DNA of 28,104 nucleotides from the IMG/VR virus record IMGVR_UViG_3300022540_001107, positions 1-28,104 of that record. One strand, written 5' to 3'. Source of the stretch: a virus. A program made the translations under genes and the position numbers. The notes under the pieces were generated by a model that was given only the letters and a program-made list of their open reading frames with translations, searched no databases and was not told the DNA's origin. Below are positions 5,030 to 27,806 of the stretch, in pieces (position 1 is the first letter of the stretch; each line of letters starts with the position of its first letter).

Positions 5030-5076
5030 CCAATAACTAATAATTAACAACTAATTATTAACGATTAATTATTAGA
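5030..5076. repeat. TTAATAA-type repeat, copy 1
   Basis: An A/T-only tract with units such as ACTAATAATTAACAA and TTAATTATTAG arranged as inverted arms. It lies immediately after the decoration gene stop and is followed by the AAGGAG ribosome-binding site of the major capsid gene. Family members recur at 8341, 11825, 21879, 26816 and 27762. Confidence 0.7.
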
Positions 5077-7382: not shown

Positions 7383-8342
7383 ATGACACAGCAACGCGGC
7401 GTAAATGCCGAGATTTTATTAGGTTTTGAAAACGCGGCATATGGCACGGCGGCTACGACCGGGTTTGTTATGCCGCTCAATTCCTGCGGCGTGGTGGGGG
7501 TGAAGAATCGCCAGGTGCCGGCCACGTTAACCGGGACCCGGAACACGGTTGTGCCTTTTGCGGGCAACAAAGACGTGAACGGGCCTATTGTAATTCCGCT
7601 GGATTCGGATGCCATGCCCTACTGGCTTGTCGCCATGTTCGGGGACCCGAGCACCACGGGCACGGATCCCTATGAACACGAATTCAAAGTGGCATCTTCC
7701 ATGCCCAGCTTTACCCTGGAAGAGGTGTTCGAGGATCTGACGGCCAATGTGTACCAGCGGTTCGTGGGATGTAAGATCGCAAGCCTGGGCATGACCTTTG
7801 GCGGTGACGGAGAGCTGATCGGCAATATCGGAGTCCTGGGCGCGGACATGAGCCATGAAACATCTGCTTTTGACGCGGCGCCCACAACCGTATCCCTGGA
7901 CCGGGTCAATAATTTCGATGCGGCCATATTGGAAGGTGGCGGGTCTTTGTCCAACGCCACCGAGCTGTCCATAAACCTGGATTTCGGGCTGGACCCAAAT
8001 TCGTTTGTGATCGGCAGCGGCGGGATCCGGGGAGATATCCCCGAGGGATTCGTGGCGGTCACCGGCAACATCAAAACCCTGTTCGAGGACAAAACCCTGT
8101 TAGATAAAGCCACGGGTGACACGGAAACGTCTCTGAAAATCACTGTAACGGACAGCGTCAACTCGATTCTGGAATTCGAGATCCAGGAGCTGCTTTACTC
8201 GGTGAACGGTGTGCCCATCGAGGGTCCCCAGGGGCTTATCGTGTCTCTGGATTTCGTGGGGTATTACACGGCCGGGTCCGAGGCGAGTAATATCGTGGCG
8301 AGAGTTACTAATAATGTGGTGTCTTACGATTTGATAACATAA
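7383..8342 (+). CDS. tail tube (major tail) protein
   Basis: A 319-aa protein starting MTQQRGVNAEILLGFENAAYG, the usual opening of the Phage_tube_2-type tail tube proteins that stack as hexameric rings to form the tail. 'EVFEDLTANVYQRFVGCKIASL' and 'LEFEIQELLYSVNGVPIEGPQ' near the C-terminus also fit. A GGAGGAAATTTAA leader gives a strong start. Next downstream come the G/GT chaperone genes, the standard siphophage order tube - G/GT - tape measure. Confidence 0.88.
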   Translation: MTQQRGVNAEILLGFENAAYGTAATTGFVMPLNSCGVVGVKNRQVPATLTGTRNTVVPFAGNKDVNGPIVIPLDSDAMPYWLVAMFGDPSTTGTDPYEHEFKVASSMPSFTLEEVFEDLTANVYQRFVGCKIASLGMTFGGDGELIGNIGVLGADMSHETSAFDAAPTTVSLDRVNNFDAAILEGGGSLSNATELSINLDFGLDPNSFVIGSGGIRGDIPEGFVAVTGNIKTLFEDKTLLDKATGDTETSLKITVTDSVNSILEFEIQELLYSVNGVPIEGPQGLIVSLDFVGYYTAGSEASNIVARVTNNVVSYDLIT

Positions 8343-8396
8343 TAATTAATAATTAATAATTAACAATTAATTATTAACCATTGATTATCAATTATT
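8341..8396. repeat. TTAATAA-type repeat, copy 2
   Basis: An A/T-only tract (AATAATTAATAATTAA units with an inverted TTAATTATTAACC half) lies between the tail tube stop and the chaperone G gene. It even contributes the tail tube TAA. Confidence 0.65.
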
Positions 8397-10280: not shown

Positions 10281-10865
10281 ATGCTGAATGTAATTACCAA
10301 AGGATTCACCGGGCTGGAGCGGACGCTGAAGACCGAAAGCCGGCGCCAGGAAAAAGCTCTTAATACTGCGATCAAAGTTGAGGGCTTTCGTCTTATGCGG
10401 CTTTTGAAAAAGCAGATCCGGGACGGGACTCCGGGCGGGAAGAAATTTGACCCTTTGACTTATTTGTCCCGGGCCCGGGGAAGTAAACGGCTGAGACCTA
10501 ATAAACCGCTGCGGCGGTTGGCCCTGGCCGTGCGGTATTTTGTGAAGGATCAATCACCGTTTGATATGCGGATCGGCTGGGTAGGACCGCGAGTCTCCAA
10601 ATCGTGGAAGAGAATCGCCGAGCTCCAGCAGAAAGGATTTACCCGCGGGATGAAATCCGAGCGCCGGGAGTTTTTCAGACTCAAAGGCGCGGCCATGTCC
10701 AAACGATCCGTGGCCAGGAAATATATGTTTATCCGGAGAACTACGAAACGGTTCACAACTCCGGCAAGGCCCATTATGGATCCGTTCTGGAGAGCGGAAA
10801 AAGATCGGGCATGGAGAAATATTCAGAAAAATTATCGAAGGAAAATGCGTGGAGAACGAATTTAA
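10281..10865 (+). CDS. tail completion/minor tail-like protein (virion morphogenesis family look)
   Basis: A 194-aa, strongly basic protein. 'DGTPGGKKFDPLTYLSRARGS', then 'KPLRRLALAVRYFV', 'ELQQKGFT' and a closing 'TTPARPIMDPFWRA' match the layout of phage virion-morphogenesis/gpZ- or gpS-like tail completion proteins ('G.P.G..F.PL', then 'qQ.Gft', then 'PaRp..dPf'). The ATG at 10281 has AGAGGA upstream; an in-frame TTG at 10236 is less likely. The stop codon overlaps the stop of the convergent minus-strand HTH gene (10862-10865). It is isolated from other tail genes by two inserted minus-strand cassettes. Confidence 0.65.
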   Translation: MLNVITKGFTGLERTLKTESRRQEKALNTAIKVEGFRLMRLLKKQIRDGTPGGKKFDPLTYLSRARGSKRLRPNKPLRRLALAVRYFVKDQSPFDMRIGWVGPRVSKSWKRIAELQQKGFTRGMKSERREFFRLKGAAMSKRSVARKYMFIRRTTKRFTTPARPIMDPFWRAEKDRAWRNIQKNYRRKMRGERI

Positions 10866-11065
10866 AGGAAATCTTCTATTATGTTGCAATCTTTAATCAG
10901 GGCCAAAATTGTAACCAGACGAATTGTGGCATTGTTCGGTTCTCTTTCGCCTGTTTCCCAATGGTTCCAGGTTTGCCAGTGGACTCCGCAAATATCAGCC
11001 ATCCGCTGTTTGTTCACCCCTAATTTCTTGCGTACCGACTCAAAATATTTTGATTTTTTTTTCAT
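10862..11065 (-). CDS. small Xre-type HTH regulator, second gene of minus-strand cassette 2
   Basis: A 67-aa protein that is essentially one helix-turn-helix: 'VRKKLGVNKQRMADICGVHW' (11-30), then 'QTWNHWETGEREPNNATIRL' with the W-E-x-G signature of Xre/Cro-type domains. The ATG at 11065 follows the ligase stop by one base (TAA A ATG), so translation is probably coupled. An upstream in-frame start at 11113 would overlap the ligase. Likely role: autorepressor of the ligase operon, acting at the palindrome in the cassette promoter. Its terminal TAA overlaps that of the convergent tail gene. Confidence 0.75.
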   Translation of the reverse strand: MKKKSKYFESVRKKLGVNKQRMADICGVHWQTWNHWETGEREPNNATIRLVTILALIKDCNIIEDFL

Positions 11066-11066
11066 T

Positions 11067-11717
11067 TTAAAAATTAAGCGATGTTTCCGCCCGGATACCG
11101 TAAAACGAAGCAAATCTCGGGAGACCTCCGGACGTGAATCCGCTGAACTTGAACCTTACTATGGTCCCGATTTCAGGGGGATTGTTTTTTCTTTTATTGT
11201 CAAGGCCCCCGAGACCCATTTTTTTTCCGTTGCGGAGCCTCAAAATCAACGCGCCGATCTTTCCGACATTTTTACCCCGGCCCTTTTTGTGTTCGATGAC
11301 AATGCCTTCACTATCCTGGAGGGGCTTTCTCTTGTATTGTTCTCCATCGGGCGACGTGATTACAACGCCTTCCCCGCCTTTTTCGATAATGTCATTATAA
11401 AATTGGTCGAATTGTTCCATGGATTTTATTTCGGTCTTGAGGATTTTATCGAAAATCATAAATCTGATATCTTCCCACCGGCTATCTTCCCGGCGGGACA
11501 TGACAACGCCCCGGGCATAATCGAATTTGCCGCGCCCGGCCCACAGCTCACCGATCAATTTTTTTTTGGGCAGACAAGTTGTCCACCATGCCGGAACGTG
11601 GATGGTGTTATTATTTCTGGTTTTCAGGATACGACCGTCCCATATGCCCTGGACGCCATCAAATTTTTCGGTCATTGTCCAGCCGGCGACATTGTCTGTA
11701 TTGTTGTATTTTTCCAT
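11067..11717 (-). CDS. ATP-dependent DNA ligase, Lig E-like, without signal peptide
   Basis: A 216-aa minimal ATP-dependent DNA ligase that seals nicks through a ligase-AMP intermediate. Visible motifs: I 'EKFDGVQG' with nucleophile K18, III 'GELWAGRG' with E57, IIIa 'FMIFDK', IV 'EGVVI' with E116, V 'YKRKP' with K129/K131. An OB domain follows, ending 'NNPPEIGTIVRFKFSGFT' and 'GLPRFASFYGIR'. The overall pattern is that of Lig E, but the usual periplasmic signal peptide is absent, so it should act in the cytoplasm. Motif I has Gln23 where Arg is usual (KxDGxR). An in-frame TTG at 11726 precedes the ATG. The gene is encoded against the tail operon and followed by an HTH gene. Confidence 0.85.
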   Translation of the reverse strand: MEKYNNTDNVAGWTMTEKFDGVQGIWDGRILKTRNNNTIHVPAWWTTCLPKKKLIGELWAGRGKFDYARGVVMSRREDSRWEDIRFMIFDKILKTEIKSMEQFDQFYNDIIEKGGEGVVITSPDGEQYKRKPLQDSEGIVIEHKKGRGKNVGKIGALILRLRNGKKMGLGGLDNKRKNNPPEIGTIVRFKFSGFTSGGLPRFASFYGIRAETSLNF

Positions 11718-11761
11718 TATTATCAATCCATTGAATATATTTTAATTTTGTTGTTAATTAC

Positions 11762-11790
11762 AATATATATCCGCTGGATATGTTTGTCAA
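11762..11790 (-). promoter_or_regulatory. promoter of cassette 2 with palindromic operator in its spacer
   Basis: On the minus strand, a consensus -35 TTGACA (11790-11785), a 17-nt spacer and a -10 TATATT (11767-11762). The spacer contains the perfect inverted repeat ATATCC-GCT-GGATAT (11767-11781 on +), whose edge touches the -10 box. The layout matches the promoter of cassette 1, with a different operator sequence. Confidence 0.7.
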
Positions 11791-11824
11791 GTAAAAAATG
11801 CAAAAAAAATGAAAAAAATGAATT

Positions 11825-11915
11825 TAATAACTAATAACTAATAATTAACAATTAATAATTAACTAAAAACCATCAATTAACAATTAATTATTAACAATTG
11901 ATTATTAATCATTAA
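11825..11915. repeat. TTAATAA-type repeat, copy 3 (longest)
   Basis: About 90 nt of A/T heptad-like units (ACTAATAATTAACAATTAA and inverted TTAATTATTAACAA forms) run up to the tape measure ATG at 11917. No Shine-Dalgarno sequence remains between repeat and start codon. Confidence 0.7.
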
Positions 11916-11916
11916 T

Positions 11917-14064
11917 ATGGATCAAAAACTTCAAATAATATTATCCGCAAAAGACGTTACAAAGTCGGCATTCATGTCCGCCCAGGGCAGGGTCGCGGCG
12001 TTTACCAAGTCTGTTTTCAGCCTGCGGGGGGCCATGGTGGCCACTGCCGGCGCGGCAGCCATGGGGGCCATGATAAAAAAGTCCCTGGAGACCGCCGACG
12101 CCATAGGCAAGGCTGCTGACGTGATCGGGATCTCCACGGATGCGCTCCAGGAATACCGGCACGCGGCGCGCATTGCCGGGGTGTCCACCGAGCTTATGGA
12201 CAATTCCTTCAAGGCGTTTTCCAAACGCGTGGGTGAAGCCCGGAACGAGACCGGCGCCCTGGTCACCTTTCTGAATAAATTCGATGAGCAACTTTTAAAA
12301 AATATCCAAAGTGCCGGGTCTACGGAAGAGGCGCTGGACCTGCTCATGGACCGCATGGGCCGCACCGCCAAACAGACCGATCGGGCGGCATTGGCAGCGG
12401 CGGCATTTTCCAGGTCCGGCCTTGTTTTAACCAACATGGTCAAAGACGGCGCCGCCGGCCTTGAAAAGATGCGTCAGGAGGCCCGGGATTTAGGCATCGT
12501 CATGGACGAGCAGCTCATCCGCCAGAGCGAAAAAGCCAATGACGAAATCGAAAAACTCACCCGGGTGATCAAGGTTCAGTTCATGTCCGCAGCCGTGGGT
12601 CTGGCCCCGGAGATCGCCAAAGTGGCCGAACATACCACCAATTGGTGGAAGGCCAATCAGGATCTGGTCAAGACCGATGTGGCCGCTTTTGCCGACAAGA
12701 TCAAAGGCACGATCATCGAGATCAAAGCTGTTTACGATGCCCTGCCCGACGGCGTGATCGGTCCTGCAGGCGCCGGTCTGGTGGGCACTATTATTCTGGG
12801 TCCGGTGGGCGGGGTTACCGTGGGATTGATTGTCGCAGCGGCACAGAATCTTTCCAGGCTCAAAAAAGAACTGTCCGACATTTATGGATCCACCAAACGA
12901 TATCTGACCGATGAGCGCCTGTTTCGCGGCGCCGGAGTGACCGGAACCTGGGCAGAACCTTCCGCACCTGCGCCGGAACCCACACTGCCGCCGACTATCG
13001 ATACGAGCGCCGCGGATGCTGCCAAGAAAGAATATGAAAGGTTGATGAAAGATCTGGCCAAAGCCCAGGCCGAATTTCAAAAATCCTTAATCATCCCATC
13101 CGGTACAGGCGCCCTGGTTGAGGAGCAGCTTCGCCGGGGTGTGGGCCAATATATTATCGGATATGACCGCACCAAAGAAGACATCGAGAAAACCAAACAG
13201 GCATTCCAGGAGATGTACTCGGACTTGCGATTTCAATCCGAGGATTACTACCAATACCGCCTGGAGCAACTTCAGCAGCAGGCTGAAGATTACGTAAAAT
13301 ACACCGGGGACGCGGCCCTGGCTCATGAATGGCTCACCGAAAGAATAAAAGAACTTGACCAGGAGCGGATTGACGCCATGGCTGACACCTATGGCATCCT
13401 GGGTGAAATGAGCCAGCGCACCGCCGAGGCCATGGAGCAGGCATTTTCCGATTTCTTTTTTGATGTTTTTATGAACGACCTGAAAATATGGCAGGATTAT
13501 ATCAGGGCTTTAGGGCGGATGACGGCTCGTATATTAGCGGATCTTACGGGTCAAATGGTAAAAGATTGGATTGTGGGCTGGGCTAAAAAGCGACCCGCGA
13601 TGATTGCGGAAGGTGTTCAAGTCCAGGCGCTTACTCTTTTATATTACCAGCTTGCGGCAGCCAAAGCATTAGCCGGAGCCGCAGCCGGAGCGGGAGGCGG
13701 AGCGGGAGGCGGTGGAGCCGCGGCCGGTGGCGGCGGCGGACCCACTGGCGGTGTAGACATAGGGTTCGTGATGCACAAAGGCGGCACCGTGGGAACGGAT
13801 ACGCCGCCCGCACGAATCATGCCAGCGTCCCTGTTCGCCCACGCGCCCAGACTGCATCAAGGATTAGCATCGGATGAATTTCCGGCCATATTGCAAAAAG
13901 GTGAAATCGTGATCCCGCGAGGACAAGCCGCATACCCGGTGAAAAACTTAACGGTCATCAGCAATCTAACCATCGAGGGCGATATGAATCGGCGGGCGGC
14001 ATCGCTGCATTTAGCGGATGTTGAGGAAAAAGTGCGAAGTGTAATGAGAGAGGAAATGAGATAA
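11917..14064 (+). CDS. tail tape measure protein
   Basis: A 715-aa tail length-determining protein that fills the tail tube and is later ejected. The opening 'MDQKLQIILSAKDVTKSAFM' then an Ala-rich hydrophobic segment 'LRGAMVATAGAAAMGAMI' (about 36-53) is typical, as are 'DAIGKAADVIGIST' and long predicted helices (~50-250 and ~340-520). Hydrophobic stretches lie near 265-315. A Gly/Ala-rich linker (~585-612) precedes a C-terminal globular part with 'EIVIPRGQAAYPV'. At about 0.15 nm per residue the tail would be roughly 100-110 nm. An in-frame TGA just upstream fixes the earliest start. The stop overlaps the next ATG (TAATG). Confidence 0.9.
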   Translation: MDQKLQIILSAKDVTKSAFMSAQGRVAAFTKSVFSLRGAMVATAGAAAMGAMIKKSLETADAIGKAADVIGISTDALQEYRHAARIAGVSTELMDNSFKAFSKRVGEARNETGALVTFLNKFDEQLLKNIQSAGSTEEALDLLMDRMGRTAKQTDRAALAAAAFSRSGLVLTNMVKDGAAGLEKMRQEARDLGIVMDEQLIRQSEKANDEIEKLTRVIKVQFMSAAVGLAPEIAKVAEHTTNWWKANQDLVKTDVAAFADKIKGTIIEIKAVYDALPDGVIGPAGAGLVGTIILGPVGGVTVGLIVAAAQNLSRLKKELSDIYGSTKRYLTDERLFRGAGVTGTWAEPSAPAPEPTLPPTIDTSAADAAKKEYERLMKDLAKAQAEFQKSLIIPSGTGALVEEQLRRGVGQYIIGYDRTKEDIEKTKQAFQEMYSDLRFQSEDYYQYRLEQLQQQAEDYVKYTGDAALAHEWLTERIKELDQERIDAMADTYGILGEMSQRTAEAMEQAFSDFFFDVFMNDLKIWQDYIRALGRMTARILADLTGQMVKDWIVGWAKKRPAMIAEGVQVQALTLLYYQLAAAKALAGAAAGAGGGAGGGGAAAGGGGGPTGGVDIGFVMHKGGTVGTDTPPARIMPASLFAHAPRLHQGLASDEFPAILQKGEIVIPRGQAAYPVKNLTVISNLTIEGDMNRRAASLHLADVEEKVRSVMREEMR

Positions 14065-14426
14065 TGGCCATGCAATTGGGATCATATACATTCACCCAGA
14101 ACCCCTGCGAACCCATGCCGGTGATCACCGAAGAACGGCGGGCCAAGTCAATTAAAACCCTGGGCGGCGTGGCGTTCTTTTCCTGGGGTACATTCATCCA
14201 GGGTCAGGAAGTGCCGCTCAATTGGACATCCATACCAACGGCTCAATATACGCAATTACTATCTCTGCTCAATGCCGATGCCGTGCTGGTCTGGGACCCG
14301 GAGAACGGCTCCACCTATAATGTGGAGATCCTGAGCCTGAACGGAGATTATCACCTGTCCACCGGCGCCGGTGCGTCATATCGCAAAAATGTGAAAATGG
14401 TCTTGCTGATTATGTCGGAAATATAG
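14064..14426 (+). CDS. small distal tail-like protein
   Basis: A 120-aa protein, translationally coupled to the tape measure gene by a TAATG overlap. It is beta-rich: 'LGSYTFTQNPCEPMPVITEE', then 'QYTQLLSLLNADAVLVWDPE' and 'YNVEILSLNGDYHLS'. Genes here, between tape measure and hub, encode distal tail or tail-tip adaptors that close the tube and carry the baseplate. The pattern fits a short Dit-like or minor tail protein, but I do not recognise a named family. Confidence 0.55.
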   Translation: MAMQLGSYTFTQNPCEPMPVITEERRAKSIKTLGGVAFFSWGTFIQGQEVPLNWTSIPTAQYTQLLSLLNADAVLVWDPENGSTYNVEILSLNGDYHLSTGAGASYRKNVKMVLLIMSEI

Positions 14427-14427
14427 T

Positions 14428-14550
14428 TGGACCCTGGATTTATGATTGTTGATTTATGATTGGCGATTGAAAAGCCCTTCAATCATCAATCCCTTTTCAA
14501 TCAACAATCATAAATCAAAGGATCGTCAATCATAAATCAACAATCATAAA
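14428..14550. repeat. CAATCAT-type inverted repeat, copy 2
   Basis: TGATTGTTGATTTATGATTG units (from about 14432) face CAATCATCAATCCC and CAATCATAAATCAA units up to 14550. It fills the whole gap between the distal tail gene and the hub gene and ends just before the hub's GGAGG. Confidence 0.7.
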
Positions 14551-14566
14551 CGCCGGAGGCTTTTCA

Positions 14567-17500
14567 TTGTCCATTACACTCAATTCTACACTTAAAACTG
14601 CCCAAGATGGAGTTAACCATCGTCCCATTGTTGAAATTGTCAGCTCTCCAATGGGTAATATCATTCCTGTTTCCGGAAATTATTTTAATTCTTTAACATC
14701 AAACGAGGTTGAACCCCATATCATATCATTATCCACGGGACGGTTGGCTGTCGTAATGCAGCGCATAAATCCGGGTACCGGCAATCCTGTTATATACTAT
14801 CAATATACCCCAACAGATAAAAGCGAATGGATAGAAGTCCTTATCTCGCCAGATAACACCAGAGATCCATGCATATGCGAATTACCAAATGGAAACATCG
14901 GTATTATTGCCATTTTTTATAGTTCTAACAGTCTGTATTATAAAATCATCACTCAAACCGGTTCAACAGTTACCGGCTGGACACTGATTTACAATCCCGG
15001 TGGCAATTGGGTGGCTAATCCATATGTGTTTACATTAGCAAATGATAATTTTCTATTGATATATCCTGAAGGAACCGGGGATCCACCAAGTCTATCCAAT
15101 ACTTATTATCTGAAACAAAGGACTTCCAGTAATTTTACCTCCTGGGGTTCGGCAACTGATATCACTCCATCTGCATTTTCCTCGAATAAATACTGTAATA
15201 ATCCTCATATATCGCAAGTCACATCCGGACGATTATTTTTGCATCTGGATTACATGAATGAATATGTTAATCTAACTGAACTAAACAATATTTACATGAT
15301 GTATTCGGACAATAACGGATCATCATGGTCATCCGCTGAAAAAATTACTGATTATACTATTGGAAAATCAGGGATACATCCCGCCGCTGTTGAGGATAGT
15401 AGTGGAGATTTAACCTTTATGTATGCAGAAAAATCAGTTGTAAAATCTCTCGATGTCAATATGACCGGATATCCATATAGCGATATTCAACCGGCAGGTA
15501 AATTAAATATTAATCTTGATACTGATGAATTATATTGGGCACATGGTATCGGAACTGTAGTACATCCACTTAGGGGTTTAACCACAATAGATGCGGATGC
15601 GTGGGAATGGACAGAAACCATAACAGAGCTGACAATCCCGCCGCTGGATAGTGTTTATTGGAATATGTATCCATCAGATTGCGAATGGTCGGCAGCAAGA
15701 TGTGGAAATAGTGCTGAAGTTCAGGCATATAATCATATAAATCAAGCAACCAGAAATTACACGTGGGGGTATTCCGGTGGAGGCGACGTATCGTACATAT
15801 TGCCGACATACGGGAATAATATGTCAGTACGATCAGGATGCATTGTTACATATAACGGAGTTAAAAGATTATATTTAATGCATGTCGGGGGAAACACTTT
15901 TAACCTAGGGTGGATTGATTTAGAAGAAATTGCAGATCAAATTACCGGATTATACACCTATAACGAAATCTGGGATGGCGGCAGTATAAGTACAACTGTC
16001 AATAAATTTGTCTTGGGCGACGACGGTATGAAATGGGATTATGTTTTCAACCGTATATGTACACATACATGGTCGTATAGGTTTGGAGGATCTGGTGGAA
16101 TAGTAGCCTGGAATCCGATTACCGGAAACCCGGAATTCGAAATTTGCCATAATTTAAATTATGGATTTCCATACGATGGAGCAAGGGATTTTCAATTCAT
16201 GGCAAATGGAGATATCTATGCTGCTTTTCCATATAATTCGAGCCAGCCGGACAGGCGTGGTTTGGCACATTATGAGGCATCCAGCGGAACTGTTTCTTAC
16301 CACGAACCAACTTGGTCATCACAAAATGAATATCATTTAAATTATTTTAACGATATGGGAGATGGCAGGATTTTAATGGTCAGCAACAACACACTGGCCA
16401 ATGGCGGCGGGATCGTGATTTACGATACAAACACAGATTCATGGGAAATAATAAATGATGATACATATCCCGGATTCGGACATACAAATAATTTATGGAG
16501 CGGGCTTAAATATAATCCTTTAACGAAAACAATATATGCAATTTATGGTGACACAATCGTTGCATTTTCTGAATATGGTCCATATGGTATTTTAAAACAA
16601 GCAGTCATCGATAATGTGGATACAACCATCGATTACGGAAGCTATGTGGATTTCAGCTATGAATTTTTTGAATATCAGCCAAACATAGTGTATGACAGTG
16701 ATAATATATTATGGATAGTATGGAAACACATAGAAGTTGGATCCGAACATTCCGCAAAATGGGCAAACCTGATAGGTGATTTTGACATCACCAACGATCT
16801 ATCAATTACATCTTCGATATCCATTGAATGGGATATTGAAAAACCTGCAAAACTAACATTCTCTCTTGCTAAAGGTCATTTATATGACCCGCAAAATTTA
16901 ATGTCAACGCTCTCGCCATTTTTAAGAAAAGGTCGTGAAATAGTTGTAAGATTTGGAGAAGAAGTCAGCTCTACAAAATATTGGCAAGATCAAGGTGCTT
17001 ATTGTATTAAAACGGTATCATTGGAATATAAAACGAATAGCTACCCTGAAATAAAAATTATAGCAGAAGATTTTAGGATTCTTTGGGAAGACCATGAAGT
17101 TATTGCTACACCATATTACAATGGTCAATCCCCGCATAATGTGTTGGAAAATATATTATTGAATTATGCTAACCTTGAAGCTGGGGACATGGATATTCCC
17201 GCTACTTTTGAAAATGAACATCTTTTATACCATCAGTTTGTCGATATGACTTTTGACGATATTGTCAAAGAATTACTCGATCATTTTGGATATTATCCGT
17301 TTGTAAATGTCGATAATGAATTTCAGCCAAGACACATAGATTTAGCCAAAGCAACAGATCATGTTTATCCGGATACTATACAATTGATAGCATATTCTCC
17401 AAGCGATTCATATTCGACATTCATAAACAGAATCATTGTTAAGGGAATATCACACTCATATACCGAAATATTATATGAGGAAGAAAATATTACAAGCATA

Positions 17501-20825: not shown

Positions 20826-21025
20826 TGGCAATACGAATCACTCATGCAGTACGGAAAATTATTAGAGATGGAGACCCGGATGCACGAATCACTCATGCAG
20901 TACGGAAAGTTATTAGAGACGGTGATCCAGATGTACGAATTACACATGCTGTACGGAAAGTTATTAGGAATGTTGAAATAGAAATAACATCACAAACAAG
21001 TTCGATGTTTTTGGTGTTCCCGTAA
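20825..21025 (+). CDS. 66-aa protein made of three 17-residue tandem repeats
   Basis: Three copies of the 17-residue unit RITHAVRKVIRDGDPDA (the third degenerate) occupy residues 4 to ~50, followed by a short hydrophobic tail ending MFLVFP. The unit is visible in DNA as a 51-bp tandem repeat from about 20834 to 20975. It is coupled to the fibre gene by TAATG. Similar basic/acidic repeat micro-proteins accompany fibre genes in other phages, but I know of no function. Confidence 0.6.
   Translation: MAIRITHAVRKIIRDGDPDARITHAVRKVIRDGDPDVRITHAVRKVIRNVEIEITSQTSSMFLVFP
20834..20975 (+). repeat. 51-bp direct tandem repeat, nearly three copies
   Basis: The unit CGAATCACTCATGCAGTACG recurs with a 51-bp period (starting near 20833, 20884 and 20935) within the 66-aa gene. 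The first two copies differ at few positions, while the third is degraded after its first half. Confidence 0.75.
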
Positions 21026-21490: not shown

Positions 21491-21880
21491 ATGTCTGATG
21501 CAAGAAAACTCTTAATGACGAAATTGACGGAAGCCCCGGTAACGCTGGATCTGTCCGGCACTGGTAATACCACTCTTTACACCACACCCACTGGCAAAAT
21601 CATGATTCCCTTCGGGATTGGACTTGTGGCAGGTGCGGATTGCGGAGCCTCAATCATCACTGCGGGTAGAAGTACCGGGCTCGCTGATTTCCTGGGATCG
21701 CAAAATCTCGGCAATATCGATGCGTCAGGAGACATGGCCTGGCTCCAACCGATTCCCAACGCCACACCAGTAATACTTAAAACCTATGCGGCAGGCGTGA
21801 TTTTTCAAATTGCAGTGACCACGGCCCTGGGCGGCGCCACTAATTATGTGGATTTATTTGGGTGGCTTAAGGATGCATAA
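21491..21880 (+). CDS. hypothetical tail-associated beta protein
   Basis: A 129-aa protein starting MSDARKLLMTKLTEAPVTLD, preceded by AAGGAGG. It is beta-rich and hydrophobic in the middle ('GKIMIPFGIGLVAGADCGAS', 'LKTYAAGVIFQIAVTTALGG') but without a clear membrane helix. Base composition returns to the GC-richer style of the rest of the phage, so this gene marks the right edge of the AT-rich module. Function not recognised; possibly a fibre accessory or tip protein. Confidence 0.5.
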   Translation: MSDARKLLMTKLTEAPVTLDLSGTGNTTLYTTPTGKIMIPFGIGLVAGADCGASIITAGRSTGLADFLGSQNLGNIDASGDMAWLQPIPNATPVILKTYAAGVIFQIAVTTALGGATNYVDLFGWLKDA

Positions 21881-21921
21881 TTAATAATTAATAATCAATT
21901 GTTAATTGTTAATTATTAAAT
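21879..21921. repeat. TTAATAA-type repeat, copy 4
   Basis: AATTAATAATTAATAATC followed by the inverted AATTGTTAATTGTTAATTA half. It begins in the stop codon of the preceding gene and ends just before the cysteine-rich gene at 21931. Confidence 0.65.
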
Positions 21922-22259: not shown

Positions 22260-22949
22260 ATGTCAATTGAGATTAAAAAACCTACTACTTTTACCGAAGG
22301 CGCGTTAGCTCTGTGGACCAATGAGTCCAACGCCTATGATCAATCCGGTACCGGCGGAGATGAGACCACCTATGCTTATCAATCGTTGGATACTGACGAG
22401 AGCCCGTCCATCCGGTTCCACACCTGGCAGGCTAAAGTAGAAACTTACACAGCCACTGTATTAAAGCTGAAGTGGGAAACATCAATTCAGACGGGCGATG
22501 ATGAAGTTCATATTGAATACACCAAGAACGGCGGCGGTGCTTGGGCTGATCTTTTAGCCAAAGCTGCCAATCGTTCCGTAGGATTTTCAACCGCTCAAAT
22601 TTCTCTGGATGCAAATCAAGACCTCACCCAGGTGGAAGTCAGGGTCAGCAGCGATAAGTTAAAAGGCGGCGATGGTGTTGAATTCATGGTCTCCGACATC
22701 TGGACCGAGGGGGAATATACCGGCGGCACCGAATATCAGCGAGCCGTTGACGGCTCCTTCCCGGCACAGTCCGGGGCATTGAATCGAAAAGCGGCATTTG
22801 AAAGAGATACGGAAGGGGCCATGCCGGGTCAATCCGGATACCTGGAGAGAAAGGCTTCCTTTTTACGTTCTGCAGAGGGAGATATTGATTGGACGCCTGG
22901 CTTGACCAGGAAGGCCGATTTTAAACGGCCCATAGAAGGTGACATATAA
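22260..22949 (+). CDS. tail fibre-like protein with C-terminal ~21-residue repeats
   Basis: A 229-aa protein. Residues 1-155 form a beta-rich domain ('YTATVLKLKWETSIQTGDDE', 'LTQVEVRVSSDKLKGGDGVE'). Residues ~165-229 are three repeats of about 21 residues of the type 'G.L.RKA.F.R..EG...' (GALNRKAAFERDTEG, GYLERKASFLRSAEG, GLTRKADFKRPIEG). The same repeat style fills the protein at 24792-25436. The gene starts directly after a repeat without a Shine-Dalgarno sequence and ends in a TAATG overlap with the next. Likely a structural fibre component. Confidence 0.55.
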   Translation: MSIEIKKPTTFTEGALALWTNESNAYDQSGTGGDETTYAYQSLDTDESPSIRFHTWQAKVETYTATVLKLKWETSIQTGDDEVHIEYTKNGGGAWADLLAKAANRSVGFSTAQISLDANQDLTQVEVRVSSDKLKGGDGVEFMVSDIWTEGEYTGGTEYQRAVDGSFPAQSGALNRKAAFERDTEGAMPGQSGYLERKASFLRSAEGDIDWTPGLTRKADFKRPIEGDI

Positions 22950-23182
22950 TGTTTTACAAATACCCGGTTTATCTTCTGCTTTCCATCTGGAATCCGTTTC
23001 CAAGAAAGTGGAAGCCGCGCTGGCCTGACGGCAGGCCGGTGCTTGATATACGATCAAGGAGAATTAATAACCAAAAAACAGAGGCGGAAATAAAGCGGCG
23101 CCTCGAAAATCAGGAGGATTTAAGGCAATGTTTCAAAATCAGATTAAAAAGTTCGTTAGATCTTTCAGGCAAAAGCGCATAG
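22949..23182 (+). CDS. small hypothetical protein overlapping the next gene
   Basis: A 77-aa ORF starting in a TAATG overlap, with GAAGGTG upstream. The N-terminus is hydrophobic/aromatic (MFYKYPVYLLLSIWNPFP), the rest basic and helical. The last 55 nt overlap the start of the following gene, whose ribosome-binding site lies inside it. It is probably real given the coupling, but I recognise no family. Confidence 0.45.
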   Translation: MFYKYPVYLLLSIWNPFPRKWKPRWPDGRPVLDIRSRRINNQKTEAEIKRRLENQEDLRQCFKIRLKSSLDLSGKSA

Positions 23183-23730
23183 CCGCACAGGTCAGAAACG
23201 GCATTGTTCCGCACGGGATCACCCAGGGCGAGATCATGGAGGCCCTCCAGGCCACCAAGCCCCACGGCGTGCTGGAGGTGTTCGGATTTCTCAGGATAAG
23301 GGTCCTGAGACATCTCACCGGCTTGTGGGAAGACTTTGGCCTAGTGTCCGTTAAATTGGTGACTACGGCATTTGCGGATTATGTGGTTGATGCGCTCCAG
23401 GACAGCACGACTTATCCTTTGGATGCGTTTACATGGCACGATATGGGCGACGACAATACCGCTGAATCCAATGCGCACACGGCCCTTCAGAATTCCAGGG
23501 AGACCCGAATAAACGACGCGTCTCCGGGAGAGAACGGCACCAATGTCTATCAGAGTATAGCCACGATCAATGCGTCGGCCGCCTATACGGTGGAAGAGCA
23601 CGGCATATTCAGCGCCGTTACCGCCGGCACTATGATGGACCGAAACCTGGTTCCCAACGCTCCGGATGTTATTGCCAACGATTCGGTCGAATTCACATAC
23701 GAGCTGACAGTCAATGCCGAATCGCCTTAA
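23128..23730 (+). CDS. phage structural (tail) protein
   Basis: A 200-aa protein with CAGGAGG upstream of the ATG. After a basic N-terminus (~1-70), residues ~75-200 carry the pattern of a widespread phage structural family: 'FTWHDMGDDNTAESNAHTAL', then 'ETRINDAS', 'NVYQSIATINASAAYTVEEHG' split as strand-turn-strand, 'MMDRNLV' and 'VEFTYELTVNAE'. Members are found near tail fibre genes in many phages. The end overlaps the methyltransferase start by 17 nt. The exact role in the virion is unknown. Confidence 0.6.
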   Translation: MFQNQIKKFVRSFRQKRIAAQVRNGIVPHGITQGEIMEALQATKPHGVLEVFGFLRIRVLRHLTGLWEDFGLVSVKLVTTAFADYVVDALQDSTTYPLDAFTWHDMGDDNTAESNAHTALQNSRETRINDASPGENGTNVYQSIATINASAAYTVEEHGIFSAVTAGTMMDRNLVPNAPDVIANDSVEFTYELTVNAESP

Positions 23731-24136
23731 TTTAGGATGCGGCCCGGATCGGCGGAACGGGTTCGTTAATTATGACATGCTTCCCATTGGAGATGTTTGC
23801 GGGGATTGCGAACAGGGAATGCCCTTTAAAGACGGCGTTTTTGATGACGTCCTGGCCTCGCACATCCTGGAGCATGTTCATGATCTGCGCAGTTTAAAAA
23901 AAGAACTGTTAAGGGTTATGAAACCGGGGGCGGACCTCACGGTCATCGTGCCGTATTATTTGAGCCAGGATGCCTGGGGAGACGATACCCATTGCAGGGC
24001 ATTTTCACGGCAAAGTTTTTTTGGCGATTTCTGGCCGGGCTTCGGGCTTATAAAACTGGCCAGCCAGGACCGGATCAAGAAGGCCAACAATGAAAAAGTG
24101 ACCTGGATCATCGCACATCTTAAAAAAGAGAAGTGA
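23714..24136 (+). CDS. SAM-dependent methyltransferase
   Basis: A 140-aa class I methyltransferase of the Methyltransf_11 type. It has 'LNLGCGPDRRNGFVNYDM' (motif I, SAM binding, ~5-22), 'MPFKDGVFDDVLASHILEHV' (~40-59) and 'LLRVMKPGADLTVIVPYY' (motifs following strand 5). It is short, lacking an added substrate domain. It overlaps the upstream structural gene and the downstream glycosyltransferase (TGATG), so the two enzymes are co-translated. Likely substrate is a glycan or a protein of the fibre region; DNA methylation is unlikely from these motifs. Confidence 0.82.
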   Translation: MPNRLNLGCGPDRRNGFVNYDMLPIGDVCGDCEQGMPFKDGVFDDVLASHILEHVHDLRSLKKELLRVMKPGADLTVIVPYYLSQDAWGDDTHCRAFSRQSFFGDFWPGFGLIKLASQDRIKKANNEKVTWIIAHLKKEK

Positions 24137-24789
24137 TGAAGAAAATCAAAAAAGTTTATATCAGCGCATGTTCGAGACGAGCTCCGGAATGGGGCATGAT
24201 CATCTGTTTGCAAAAAGCCATGCAGCATGCCGCATCAAAAGGGATAACCTGTACCATGTCCCCCAGGGTGGGCGAATCTCTGATATGTCGGGCCAGGCAA
24301 AACAGCCTTGTTGCCTTTATGGATACGGACTGTGATTATCTTCTCACCGTCGATGACGATGTGGAATTGCCGAAAAACGCCATATCCAAACTGGTTGAAG
24401 ATGACAAGGATATTGTGGGAGGCTTTTACCGGCTCAGGCAAGATGACAAGGCGGTGACGGCTGTGAGGATACCGGGCAAGCCCGACTTTCCGGAGATCTT
24501 CAAGAAAAACTTGTTGACGCTGGCCATATATGTGAGCACCGGAGCAAAGCTGGTGAAACGAAAGATCATCGAGACCATGATCGCCGCATACCCGGACCTG
24601 CACTATACACAGAACAGGACTAACAAACCGGCCTGGGCATTGTATCAGCCCTATATTTATAAGGATGAATACCTGTCCGAAGACTGGGCGTTTTGCCAGC
24701 GGGCCAAAGATATCGGGTTTGAAGTGTGGGCGGACGGATCGGTCCGCTGCGGACACTGGGGCCTGATTAAATATGATTTTGGAGAATAA
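24136..24789 (+). CDS. family 2-like (GT-A) glycosyltransferase
   Basis: A 217-aa GT-A fold enzyme. 'YLLTVDDDVELPKNA' carries the metal/nucleotide-sugar DDD motif (D73-D75), and the C-terminal 'SEDWAFCQRAKDIGFEVWAD' plus 'CGHWG' is the acceptor-side ED...GH motif. 'SLICRARQNSLVAFM' (~48-62) is typical of related phage and bacterial enzymes that start with 'R....a...l'. The ATG at 24136 overlaps the methyltransferase stop; a GTG one codon upstream is possible. With the methyltransferase it may decorate a fibre or alter host surface glycans. The acceptor is not known. Confidence 0.8.
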   Translation: MKKIKKVYISACSRRAPEWGMIICLQKAMQHAASKGITCTMSPRVGESLICRARQNSLVAFMDTDCDYLLTVDDDVELPKNAISKLVEDDKDIVGGFYRLRQDDKAVTAVRIPGKPDFPEIFKKNLLTLAIYVSTGAKLVKRKIIETMIAAYPDLHYTQNRTNKPAWALYQPYIYKDEYLSEDWAFCQRAKDIGFEVWADGSVRCGHWGLIKYDFGE

Positions 24790-24791
24790 CA

Positions 24792-25436
24792 TTGCCGTTT
24801 TCAGGATCAATTAACAGAACGGTTGCTTATCCGAGAATGCTGGAGGGCGAATCCGGCTTTTCCGGTGATGTCGGCGCCGTTAAAAAAATATTGAGGGCCG
24901 TGACCGGTGCCCTGGGCAGCCTGGGCGGATCGATTTCAAGGACCGTGGCATTTAAAAGAGAGGTTTTCGGAACCATTGAAACCCAAGGGGTATTGAAAAG
25001 GATTTTGTCGGCTGCAAGAAGCGTTGCCGGCGGGTTCGGTTTTGCGGGAAGTGTATCAGCCCTTAAAAAAATATTCCGCTCCCTGTCCGGCGCCCTGGGC
25101 AGTCTGGGCGGGTCATTATCGAGGGTCGTGGCTTTTAAAAGAAAGGCCGGCGGAGCTGTTGAATTCCAGGGGATTTTAAACCGGGTTTTGTCGGCGGGAA
25201 GAAACCTTGCCGGCAATATTGATGCTGCCGGAGATCTGTCAAGAAAGGCAGTATATTTCAGGAGCCTCGTCGGGGGAATTACCTGGAGCGGTATAATCAA
25301 AGCCGTCACCGGCGGCCTGGGCGTGATCATTGATCCGGCAATTAGTTCCATTACCGCCATTCATACTTTTGCGTCGAAAACCGTTGCGCGGGTTCTGAAA
25401 TCCATAACCACGGACCGGGACATCGAGGAGAAATAA
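24792..25436 (+). CDS. repeat-rich fibre protein
   Basis: A 214-aa protein starting at TTG, with TTTTGGAG upstream. It is almost entirely built from ~20-22-residue repeats 'G.(I/L)SR.VAFKR...G', hydrophobic/Gly-rich and basic. A larger 61-residue (183-bp) unit is duplicated: 'KKILRAVTGALGSLGGSISR' and 'KKIFRSLSGALGSLGGSLSR'. The same repeat type closes the protein at 22260-22949. Such repeats suggest an elongated beta-solenoid or beta-prism fibre shaft. The C-terminus (~165-214) is helical. Confidence 0.6.
   Translation: MPFSGSINRTVAYPRMLEGESGFSGDVGAVKKILRAVTGALGSLGGSISRTVAFKREVFGTIETQGVLKRILSAARSVAGGFGFAGSVSALKKIFRSLSGALGSLGGSLSRVVAFKRKAGGAVEFQGILNRVLSAGRNLAGNIDAAGDLSRKAVYFRSLVGGITWSGIIKAVTGGLGVIIDPAISSITAIHTFASKTVARVLKSITTDRDIEEK
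24880..25250 (+). repeat. 183-bp direct repeat inside the fibre gene
   Basis: TAAAAAAATATT (24881 and 25064) and GCCCTGGGCAG (24909 and 25092) recur with an exact 183-bp offset, and the flanking sequence stays similar over most of the unit. The period equals 61 codons, so copy number can change without a frameshift. Confidence 0.7.
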
Positions 25437-26408: not shown

Positions 26409-26818
26409 TGAATGAATATGAAATCAAGGAAATGATCCATCGTCATGAAGGATTCCGGCCTTATGTGTATTACGACACCCTGGGGTTTCCAACGGGCGGA
26501 TATGGCCATGCTTTTTTGGATCGAAGCCCCATCTCTCATAATGTGGCTGTTTTGTTGTTTGATGAGGATTTTGATCGGGTCAAAAAAGATTATGAAAAGT
26601 TGCGATTTGATTTGGATCCGGTGCGCCGGGCAGTGATCATCGATATGTTGTTTAATCTGGGATTGACCAGGTTCAGGGCTTTTCGACGGATGATCTATGC
26701 GTTGGAACACAAACAATATGACACGGCTGCCGATGAGATGCTGGACAGTAAATGGGCGTTACAGGTCAAAAGCCGGGCGTTCCGCCTGGCACAAATGATG
26801 AAGACCGGCGAGAAATAA
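26408..26818 (+). CDS. endolysin, GH24 (T4-type) lysozyme
   Basis: A 136-aa muramidase. The catalytic arrangement E14 (RHEGFRP), D23 (YYDTLG) and T29 (FPTGGYGH) has the 8- and 5-residue spacing of T4 lysozyme. 'RRAVIIDMLFNLGLTRFRAF' matches the conserved central helix and 'SKWALQVKSRAFRLAQMM' the C-terminal helix pair ('W...vg.Ra.rla.mm.tG'). There is no signal peptide or SAR segment, so release needs a holin; two candidates follow downstream. The start overlaps the previous stop (TAATG), and the stop runs into a TTAATAA-type repeat. Confidence 0.93.
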   Translation: MNEYEIKEMIHRHEGFRPYVYYDTLGFPTGGYGHAFLDRSPISHNVAVLLFDEDFDRVKKDYEKLRFDLDPVRRAVIIDMLFNLGLTRFRAFRRMIYALEHKQYDTAADEMLDSKWALQVKSRAFRLAQMMKTGEK

Positions 26819-26856
26819 TTAATAATCAATTGCTAATTATTAACTGATAATTAAAA
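26816..26856. repeat. TTAATAA-type repeat, copy 5
   Basis: TAATTAATAATCAATTGC followed by inverted TAATTATTAACTGATAATTA. It includes the lysozyme stop codon and is followed by AAAAGGGG, the ribosome-binding site of the exported protein gene. Confidence 0.65.
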
Positions 26857-27499: not shown

Positions 27500-27763
27500 A
27501 TGAGTAGCTGGCTATTTGCATTACAATTAATACCGTTAATCATTAATCTGATGACCACGATTGAAAAACTATTGGGACCTGGGACCGGTGTTCAGAAGAA
27601 AGCATTCGTAAAAGACGGTGTCAAGGCCGTGGTCAAGGAAATGTCCGCTGTTTCCACTGGCGGCCAGAAACAAACATGGGAAACCATCGATCTGTTTATG
27701 ACACCGATTTCAAGACTGATCGATGTTTTTTCAACATTGCTGTTTCCGAACGAGAAAAATTAA
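27500..27763 (+). CDS. small membrane-associated protein, holin/antiholin candidate
   Basis: An 87-aa protein with one N-terminal hydrophobic helix (~3-20, WLFALQLIPLIINLM) and a longer amphipathic remainder ending in 'ISRLIDVFSTLLFPNEKN'. AAAGGAGAATGAAAA precedes the ATG. It could be a holin partner or antiholin, or a phage protein of the kind with an N-terminal anchor often seen next to lysis genes. No family recognised with certainty. Confidence 0.5.
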   Translation: MSSWLFALQLIPLIINLMTTIEKLLGPGTGVQKKAFVKDGVKAVVKEMSAVSTGGQKQTWETIDLFMTPISRLIDVFSTLLFPNEKN

Positions 27764-27806
27764 TAACTAATAATTAACAATTAATTATTAACAATTAATT
27801 ATTAGT
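27762..27806. repeat. TTAATAA-type repeat, copy 6, with perfect 12-bp terminal inversion
   Basis: ACTAATAATTAA at the left end and TTAATTATTAGT at the right end are perfect inverses, with further units between. It separates two convergent genes, so a hairpin here could act in both directions. Confidence 0.7.

Follow-up and report, generated by a model that had tools for sequence, protein, structure and literature searches.

A compact Lig E-like DNA ligase with a motif I glutamine in an antisense two-gene cassette between phage tail genes

A viral contig of 28,104 nucleotides (nt) from IMG/VR (record IMGVR_UViG_3300022540_001107; the whole stretch analyzed is called the window here) carries, on the minus strand at 11067..11717, the gene of a compact Lig E-like ATP-dependent DNA ligase of 216 amino acids (aa). 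Together with a small helix-turn-helix (HTH) gene, it forms a cassette of two genes lying antisense between the tail-completion and tape-measure genes. We favor, with a probability of about 0.55, the explanation that this cassette is a moron, a self-contained two-gene unit that would provide a cytoplasmic, pared-down Lig E-like ligase and an HTH protein from its own promoter and that would have been inserted into the tail module of a siphovirus-type phage. On this explanation, the ligase would most likely be an active nick-sealing enzyme supplied independently of the late genes.

Identity and predicted fold of the ligase

The open reading frame (ORF) starts with an ATG at 11717, ends with a TAA at 11069-11067, and encodes a protein that begins MEKYNNTDNVAGWTMTEKFDGVQGIW. 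Pfam detected an OB domain (PF14743, 2.4e-17) and PHROGs placed the protein in an ATP-dependent DNA ligase family. The NCBIfam Lig E equivalog PRK09125 matched it with E = 1.1e-58 and 198.5 bits (cut-off, 200) and rose above that cut-off in a six-frame search (204.4 bits). By sequence, the best three matches among solved structures were all Lig E, namely, those of Neisseria gonorrhoeae (8u6x), Ame-Lig (6gdr), and Psy-Lig (4d05) (PMC6144786, PMC8455567, PMC12221376). The fold was predicted with high confidence by AlphaFold2 (60 aligned relatives; pLDDT, 93.1). Lig E structures were at the top of a Foldseek search with this model, and VIA-align matched it to the DNA-bound Lig E 6gdr with a Z of 20.7 and 2.8 Å over 209 residues, followed by two more Lig E entries and then by the Prochlorococcus, T4, L3, and Chlorella virus ligases (Z, 15.4 to 15.7). 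The architecture consists of the adenylation and OB domains only, and the model aligned to 6gdr without extra elements, with neither a latch nor a DNA-binding domain. Given the E values and the confident fold, a chance ORF is excluded, and by profile, sequence, and fold the window ligase is nearest to Lig E, as a first-pass annotation of this DNA had proposed from its nucleotidyltransferase motifs and OB domain.

Motif I reads KFDGVQ (K18-x-D20-G21, with K18 as the nucleophile), with Gln23 at the position of the usual Arg, a replacement already noted in that annotation. The other core residues are kept: R34, E57 (motif III), F65, F89 (IIIa), E116 (IV), and K129/K131 (V). The Lig E residues for holding, charging, and transferring AMP have been described for Ame-Lig (PMC6144786), and the sequence alignment with 6gdr provided the correspondence. 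With the window residue given first, K18 corresponds to K34, Q23 to R39, R34 to R50, E57 to E73, F65 to F81, F89 to F133, K129 to K209, R147 to K227, and K149 to K229, and in the OB part G168 to K248, K190 to K271, T195 to T276, F202 to F283, and S204 to S285. Judged by this correspondence, the motif I Arg is the one residue missing from the AMP-binding and catalytic set, and part of the DNA-binding set is gone. Lig E has two OB motifs, G-K-G-K-aromatic and F-basic-I-G-S-G-F-x-D (PMC6144786); the first is GRGKN in the window ligase, with the basic fork retained and the aromatic gone, and the second has decayed to KKMGLG-GLDN (F-basic-I-G-S-G-F in Lig E). Nick sealing by such an enzyme appears plausible.

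No signal peptide was found in the ligase, in which only 17 residues, without a hydrophobic stretch, precede K18. The open frame reaches just a few codons upstream of the ATG, leaving no room for a leader. With neither a leader nor space for one, a periplasmic or exported enzyme is ruled out, and the cytoplasmic location initially suggested is supported.

Phylogeny

In the LG+G4 tree, the window ligase paired with that of the viral locus L009 (support, 99) inside a clade (99) that combined Lig E with viral Lig E-like ligases and left out the ligases of T7, ICP2, VP41s3, Rhizobium Y68, and ctIqW946. A mixture-model tree recovered the Lig E clade with 98/97 and the pair with 85/77. JG068, on a very long branch, was also drawn into the Lig E clade, a placement that is probably false, and the ligase of another locus, L071, sister to the pair with 96 in the LG+G4 tree, was not reliably so under the mixture model and was not retained as such. 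Approximately unbiased (AU) tests failed to reject a grouping of the pair with replication ligases (p 0.33) or with the ICP2/VP41s3 type (p 0.12). The phylogeny against other minimal ligases, which had been named as the check on the Lig E assignment, thus places the enzyme within the Lig E radiation in the best trees and leaves these alternatives; the placement is favored but not forced. For the affinity to Lig E, the tree is therefore one line of evidence beside the profile, fold, and pairwise comparisons and does not carry the claim by itself.

The two AU results would accommodate an ordinary phage replication ligase, nearest to the T7/ICP2/T4 type and only superficially like Lig E, as would the ICP2-type enzyme, which comes from a replication region and is also short (229 aa), with similar segments missing. 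We give this very little credence, since the bootstrap values that set the window ligase within the Lig E radiation are 98 to 99 in the best trees, Lig E came first in the profile, PDB sequence, and fold searches, and the ICP2 type retains the Arg.

A compact lineage with glutamine in motif I

In an alignment of 113 nonredundant ligases, 41 columns filled in >70% of the rows were empty in the window or the L009 ligase, and 40 of them were empty in both. Most of these columns fall in two segments, a helix that links motif IIIa to IV and an 8-residue loop that links IV to V. Nearly all Lig E have them; neither their absence nor the degraded second OB motif had been noted in the first-pass annotation. 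The two enzymes are only 41% identical but have in common the Gln (KVDGVQ in L009), both deletions, and a downstream HTH gene. All of the ca. 164 other relatives examined have Arg in motif I. This contrast was not built in, because the viral search pattern accepted R or Q at that position (each scan being limited to its 80 best loci), although compact KxDGxQ forms are possibly undersampled. The viral relatives were reached by a search with a mixed alignment; a scan of viral contigs with the window ligase alone gave no relative, and one with both compact members matched L009 only.

Because the Gln is shared with a diverged phage relative, it points to an adapted form rather than to decay, which agrees with the phage-adapted enzyme envisaged at first, and on the sequence evidence the compact Gln ligases are a lineage and not a decaying copy. 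Judging from the AlphaFold2 model and the fold match, the deletions would leave a complete, closed two-domain core. A Lig E search of 395 genomes in the phylum of Desulforhopalus found 11 genomes with frames of at least 277 aa, none of them compact; the major capsid protein of the window had no strong match in the same 395 genomes.

A catalytically shifted enzyme, which would take AMP but seal poorly and would have a different purpose (adenylyl transfer, binding of DNA ends or nicks, or regulation), would also be in keeping with Gln23 in both compact members and Arg in every other relative examined, with the OB DNA-contact residues missing from the window ligase, and with the absence of the second motif V Lys from that of L009. 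However, all the remaining invariant Lig E columns are retained in both enzymes in spite of their low mutual identity, which argues for kept chemistry and makes a shifted enzyme unlikely in our judgment.

In L009, the ligase gene is followed after 8 bases by the HTH gene (PF13560, 4.1e-09), and the accessory region around them includes an integrase and a glycosyltransferase-like gene. Immediately upstream of this full-length KVDGVQ ligase, positions 7082-7570 of L009 contain a BRCT-domain ORF and a second, partial copy of the ligase N terminus, in which motif I still reads KLDGVR. In L071, a Lig E-like ligase with the Arg lies antisense to a probable tail module (its genes judged by sequence appearance and order, with no match in PHROGs) and is followed by a ribbon-helix-helix (RHH) protein (PF01402, 4.9e-08). 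The window, L009, and L071, each with a different regulator, suggest a repeated design, although small DNA-binding genes are common in phages.

Lig E-like ligases in other viral loci

A P27-type terminase small subunit gene (terS) was directly downstream of the ligase in 53 of the best 80 viral loci, as counted by a sequence pattern with one representative confirmed by Pfam (PF05119); many of the 80 are near-copies, so the 53 do not amount to 53 independent events. By eye from the translations, the ligase of L077 lies between TerL and portal and that of L073 upstream of terS/terL. Across the viral loci L010 to L088 there was an apparent association of the Lig E-like ligase with packaging genes. 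A crude hydrophobic leader was seen in 2 of 29 nonredundant viral members versus 58 of 72 bacterial ones, and 11 of the 29 had no room for a leader. From these leader and terminase counts, it is normal for a phage Lig E-like ligase to have no leader and to be encoded in a late region. Two contrasts drawn in the first-pass annotation are therefore softened: the window ligase is indeed leaderless, unlike exported Lig E, and it does lie outside a replication module, within the tail module, but both are common among viral members. The window stands out by the antisense orientation of the inserted unit and its separate putative promoter, by the Gln, and by the compactness of the enzyme.

The terminase neighbors, including those of L077 and L073, raise the alternative of a late packaging-associated ligase that would act on phage DNA, at nicks in concatemers or at ends, its gene being merely relocated within the late region. 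We consider this rather unlikely. The window gene opposes the late genes and has its own putative promoter, the set of 80 loci is inflated by near-copies, and the absence of the ligase from close relatives (see below) implies that it is not needed for packaging in the group.

Insertion between the tail genes

The cassette is flanked on the left by a tail completion or neck protein gene (10281..10865, plus strand; PHROG 222) and on the right by the tail tape-measure protein gene (11917..14064, plus strand; PHROGs 8462 and others). Only 85 to 90 bp separate the two tail genes in L282 and L281, whose tail-completion proteins share 79% and 74% identity, respectively, with that of the window; in L193 they overlap by one base, and in L195 they are a few bases apart. 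No ligase was found in the records of L281, L282, L195, L194, or L176, and the absence of the HTH gene from the site in relatives is based on the short gap between the flanking genes. At this site L176 has a 4.6-kb block of other ORFs. Because close relatives are without the ligase and L176 carries a different block, the site is variable and the ligase cassette is optional cargo; compared with these loci, it is a genuine insertion. The L176 block (11390-15813) includes methyltransferase-like, glycosyltransferase-like, and repeat-bearing ORFs that resemble 22260-25436 at the right end of the window, suggesting that this block moves between late-region positions.

HTH partner and control region

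The HTH gene (10862..11065, minus strand) has its ATG (11065) 1 nt past the ligase stop, and its last 4 nt are shared with the 3' end of the tail-completion gene, the two genes meeting tail to tail. Its 67-aa product resembles the C-terminal DNA-binding part of MqsA (PF15731 and HTH_3 in Pfam; weak NCBIfam matches of the RstR/VC1465/MqsA type), and no relatives of it were detected in viral contigs. Upstream of the ligase, a putative sigma-70-type promoter, TTGACA-17-TATATT (11762..11790, minus strand), agrees with the consensus at 11 of 12 positions, that match being the basis of its assignment. Between its -35 and -10 elements lies a perfect palindrome, ATATCC-N3-GGATAT (11767..11781), a single exact copy in the window and a candidate operator for the HTH protein. 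From the gene order and the promoter palindrome, we infer with good reason that the HTH protein may act as a repressor of the cassette, including its own gene. The regulated moron proposed in the first-pass annotation thus stands as regards its own putative promoter, its absence from the site in close relatives, and the HTH gene, whereas the repressor part is drawn only from gene order and palindrome.

A gene pair at an accessory site, with a ligase-fold effector and a downstream MqsA-type repressor, could also be a toxin-antitoxin-like or defense module. We hold this to be very unlikely, since the HTH protein does not have the N-terminal zinc-binding domain of MqsA and the partners vary between phages (HTH, HTH, and RHH).

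Between the cassette promoter and the tape-measure gene there is an AT-rich array of 7/14-bp repeats (11824..11917), with similar arrays in other intergenic gaps (5035-5074, 8340-8388, 21877-21919, 26818-26852, and 27758-27804). The repeat core AATTAACAATTAATNATTAAC had 17 matches in the window versus 0.03 expected. The matching gap in L281 and L282 contains different short inverted repeats. Tandem repeats within ORFs of the window were of 183 bp (ca. 1.9 copies; 24876-25214) and 51 bp (2.6 copies; 20833-20967).

The cassette as a probable moron

For the cassette as a moron, we infer sealing activity, autorepression, timing, and benefit as follows. The ligase would charge K18 with AMP, hand the AMP to the 5'-phosphate at a duplex nick, and seal it, gripping the DNA by a C-shaped clamp without full encirclement, as Lig E does. 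The HTH protein would bind the promoter palindrome and limit expression of both genes. Expression from the prophage or early in infection, outside late control, is possible because the putative promoter, strong and of host type, would drive transcription in the direction opposite to the late genes. The benefit would be more sealing capacity for host or phage DNA; for the mending of nicks made by host nucleases, the role originally put forward, no specific support was found.

Several observations weigh against this explanation. Gln23 replaces an Arg that in Lig E contacts both AMP and DNA, the OB domain has lost two residues for DNA binding (K248 is G168 here, and T251 is deleted), and the R203-bearing loop is absent; therefore, DNA affinity or sealing may be low, and room may be left for weak sealing or an altered role. 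The PF15731 match of the HTH protein (1.1e-06, 29.3 bits) is just under the cut-off of 30. The G+C content of the ligase gene (0.469) is like that of the window (0.465), giving no sign of recent import, and lies below the 0.515 and 0.554 of the flanking tail genes. A scan of 10800-11930 showed no terminator-like site downstream of the HTH gene. Finally, the contig, a fragment, carries neither an integrase nor a master repressor that would mark the phage as temperate. The replication module lies off this 28-kb contig, 25 kb of the window had no nucleotide match among known phages, and the window has no Rfam match.

Comparison with known systems

Lig E has the same two-domain core without additional DNA-binding domains or latch, the same motif order, and the best sequence, profile, and fold matches. 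The window ligase differs in being leaderless, in the motif I Gln, in the ca. 40 missing alignment columns, in the degraded second DNA-binding motif, and in being phage encoded within a tail-module insertion. Among bacterial Lig E nodes, 69% have a predicted export leader (PMC8455567). Other IMG/VR viral Lig E-like ligases (e.g., L010 to L088) are likewise usually leaderless, and many lie in packaging or head regions, but they are usually ca. 250 aa long with the Arg and without the deletions, and most are on the same strand directly upstream of terS. Vibrio phage ICP2 gp64 and the VP41s3 ligase are also very short cores with similar segments missing, but they keep the Arg, lie beside nucleases in an early or replication-type region, and are not the nearest match in either profile or fold. 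Paraburkholderia phage 437 ORF55 (PMC5567305), likened here by description only, is another 216-aa ATP-dependent ligase, oriented opposite to neighboring tail-fiber assembly genes; unlike the window ligase, it is annotated as LigD, has 30% identity to the phi3T ligase, and lies near a RecA/RadA-like gene. As for MqsA (PMC4803016), the HTH protein resembles its C-terminal DNA-binding domain and the regulator is second in the operon in both, but the zinc-binding domain is missing and a ligase takes the place of the MqsR toxin.

Implications

A 2021 network study of minimal ligases covered 250 to 370 aa and reported no phage "missing link" for Lig E (PMC8455567); the 216-aa form is outside that range, and the viral loci described here supply phage relatives of Lig E. 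Only tentatively, we suggest that a lineage of leaderless Lig E-like ligases may be widespread in tailed phages, associated with their packaging and late modules and corresponding on the phage side to bacterial Lig E; within it, the window and L009 ligases could represent a compact Gln sublineage moved to accessory sites, with a small DNA-binding regulator and altered catalysis. The two diverged phage Gln enzymes offer a clean natural test of the role of the motif I Arg. Should the cassette be active in lysogens, it would give the host a phage-supplied capacity for nick sealing.
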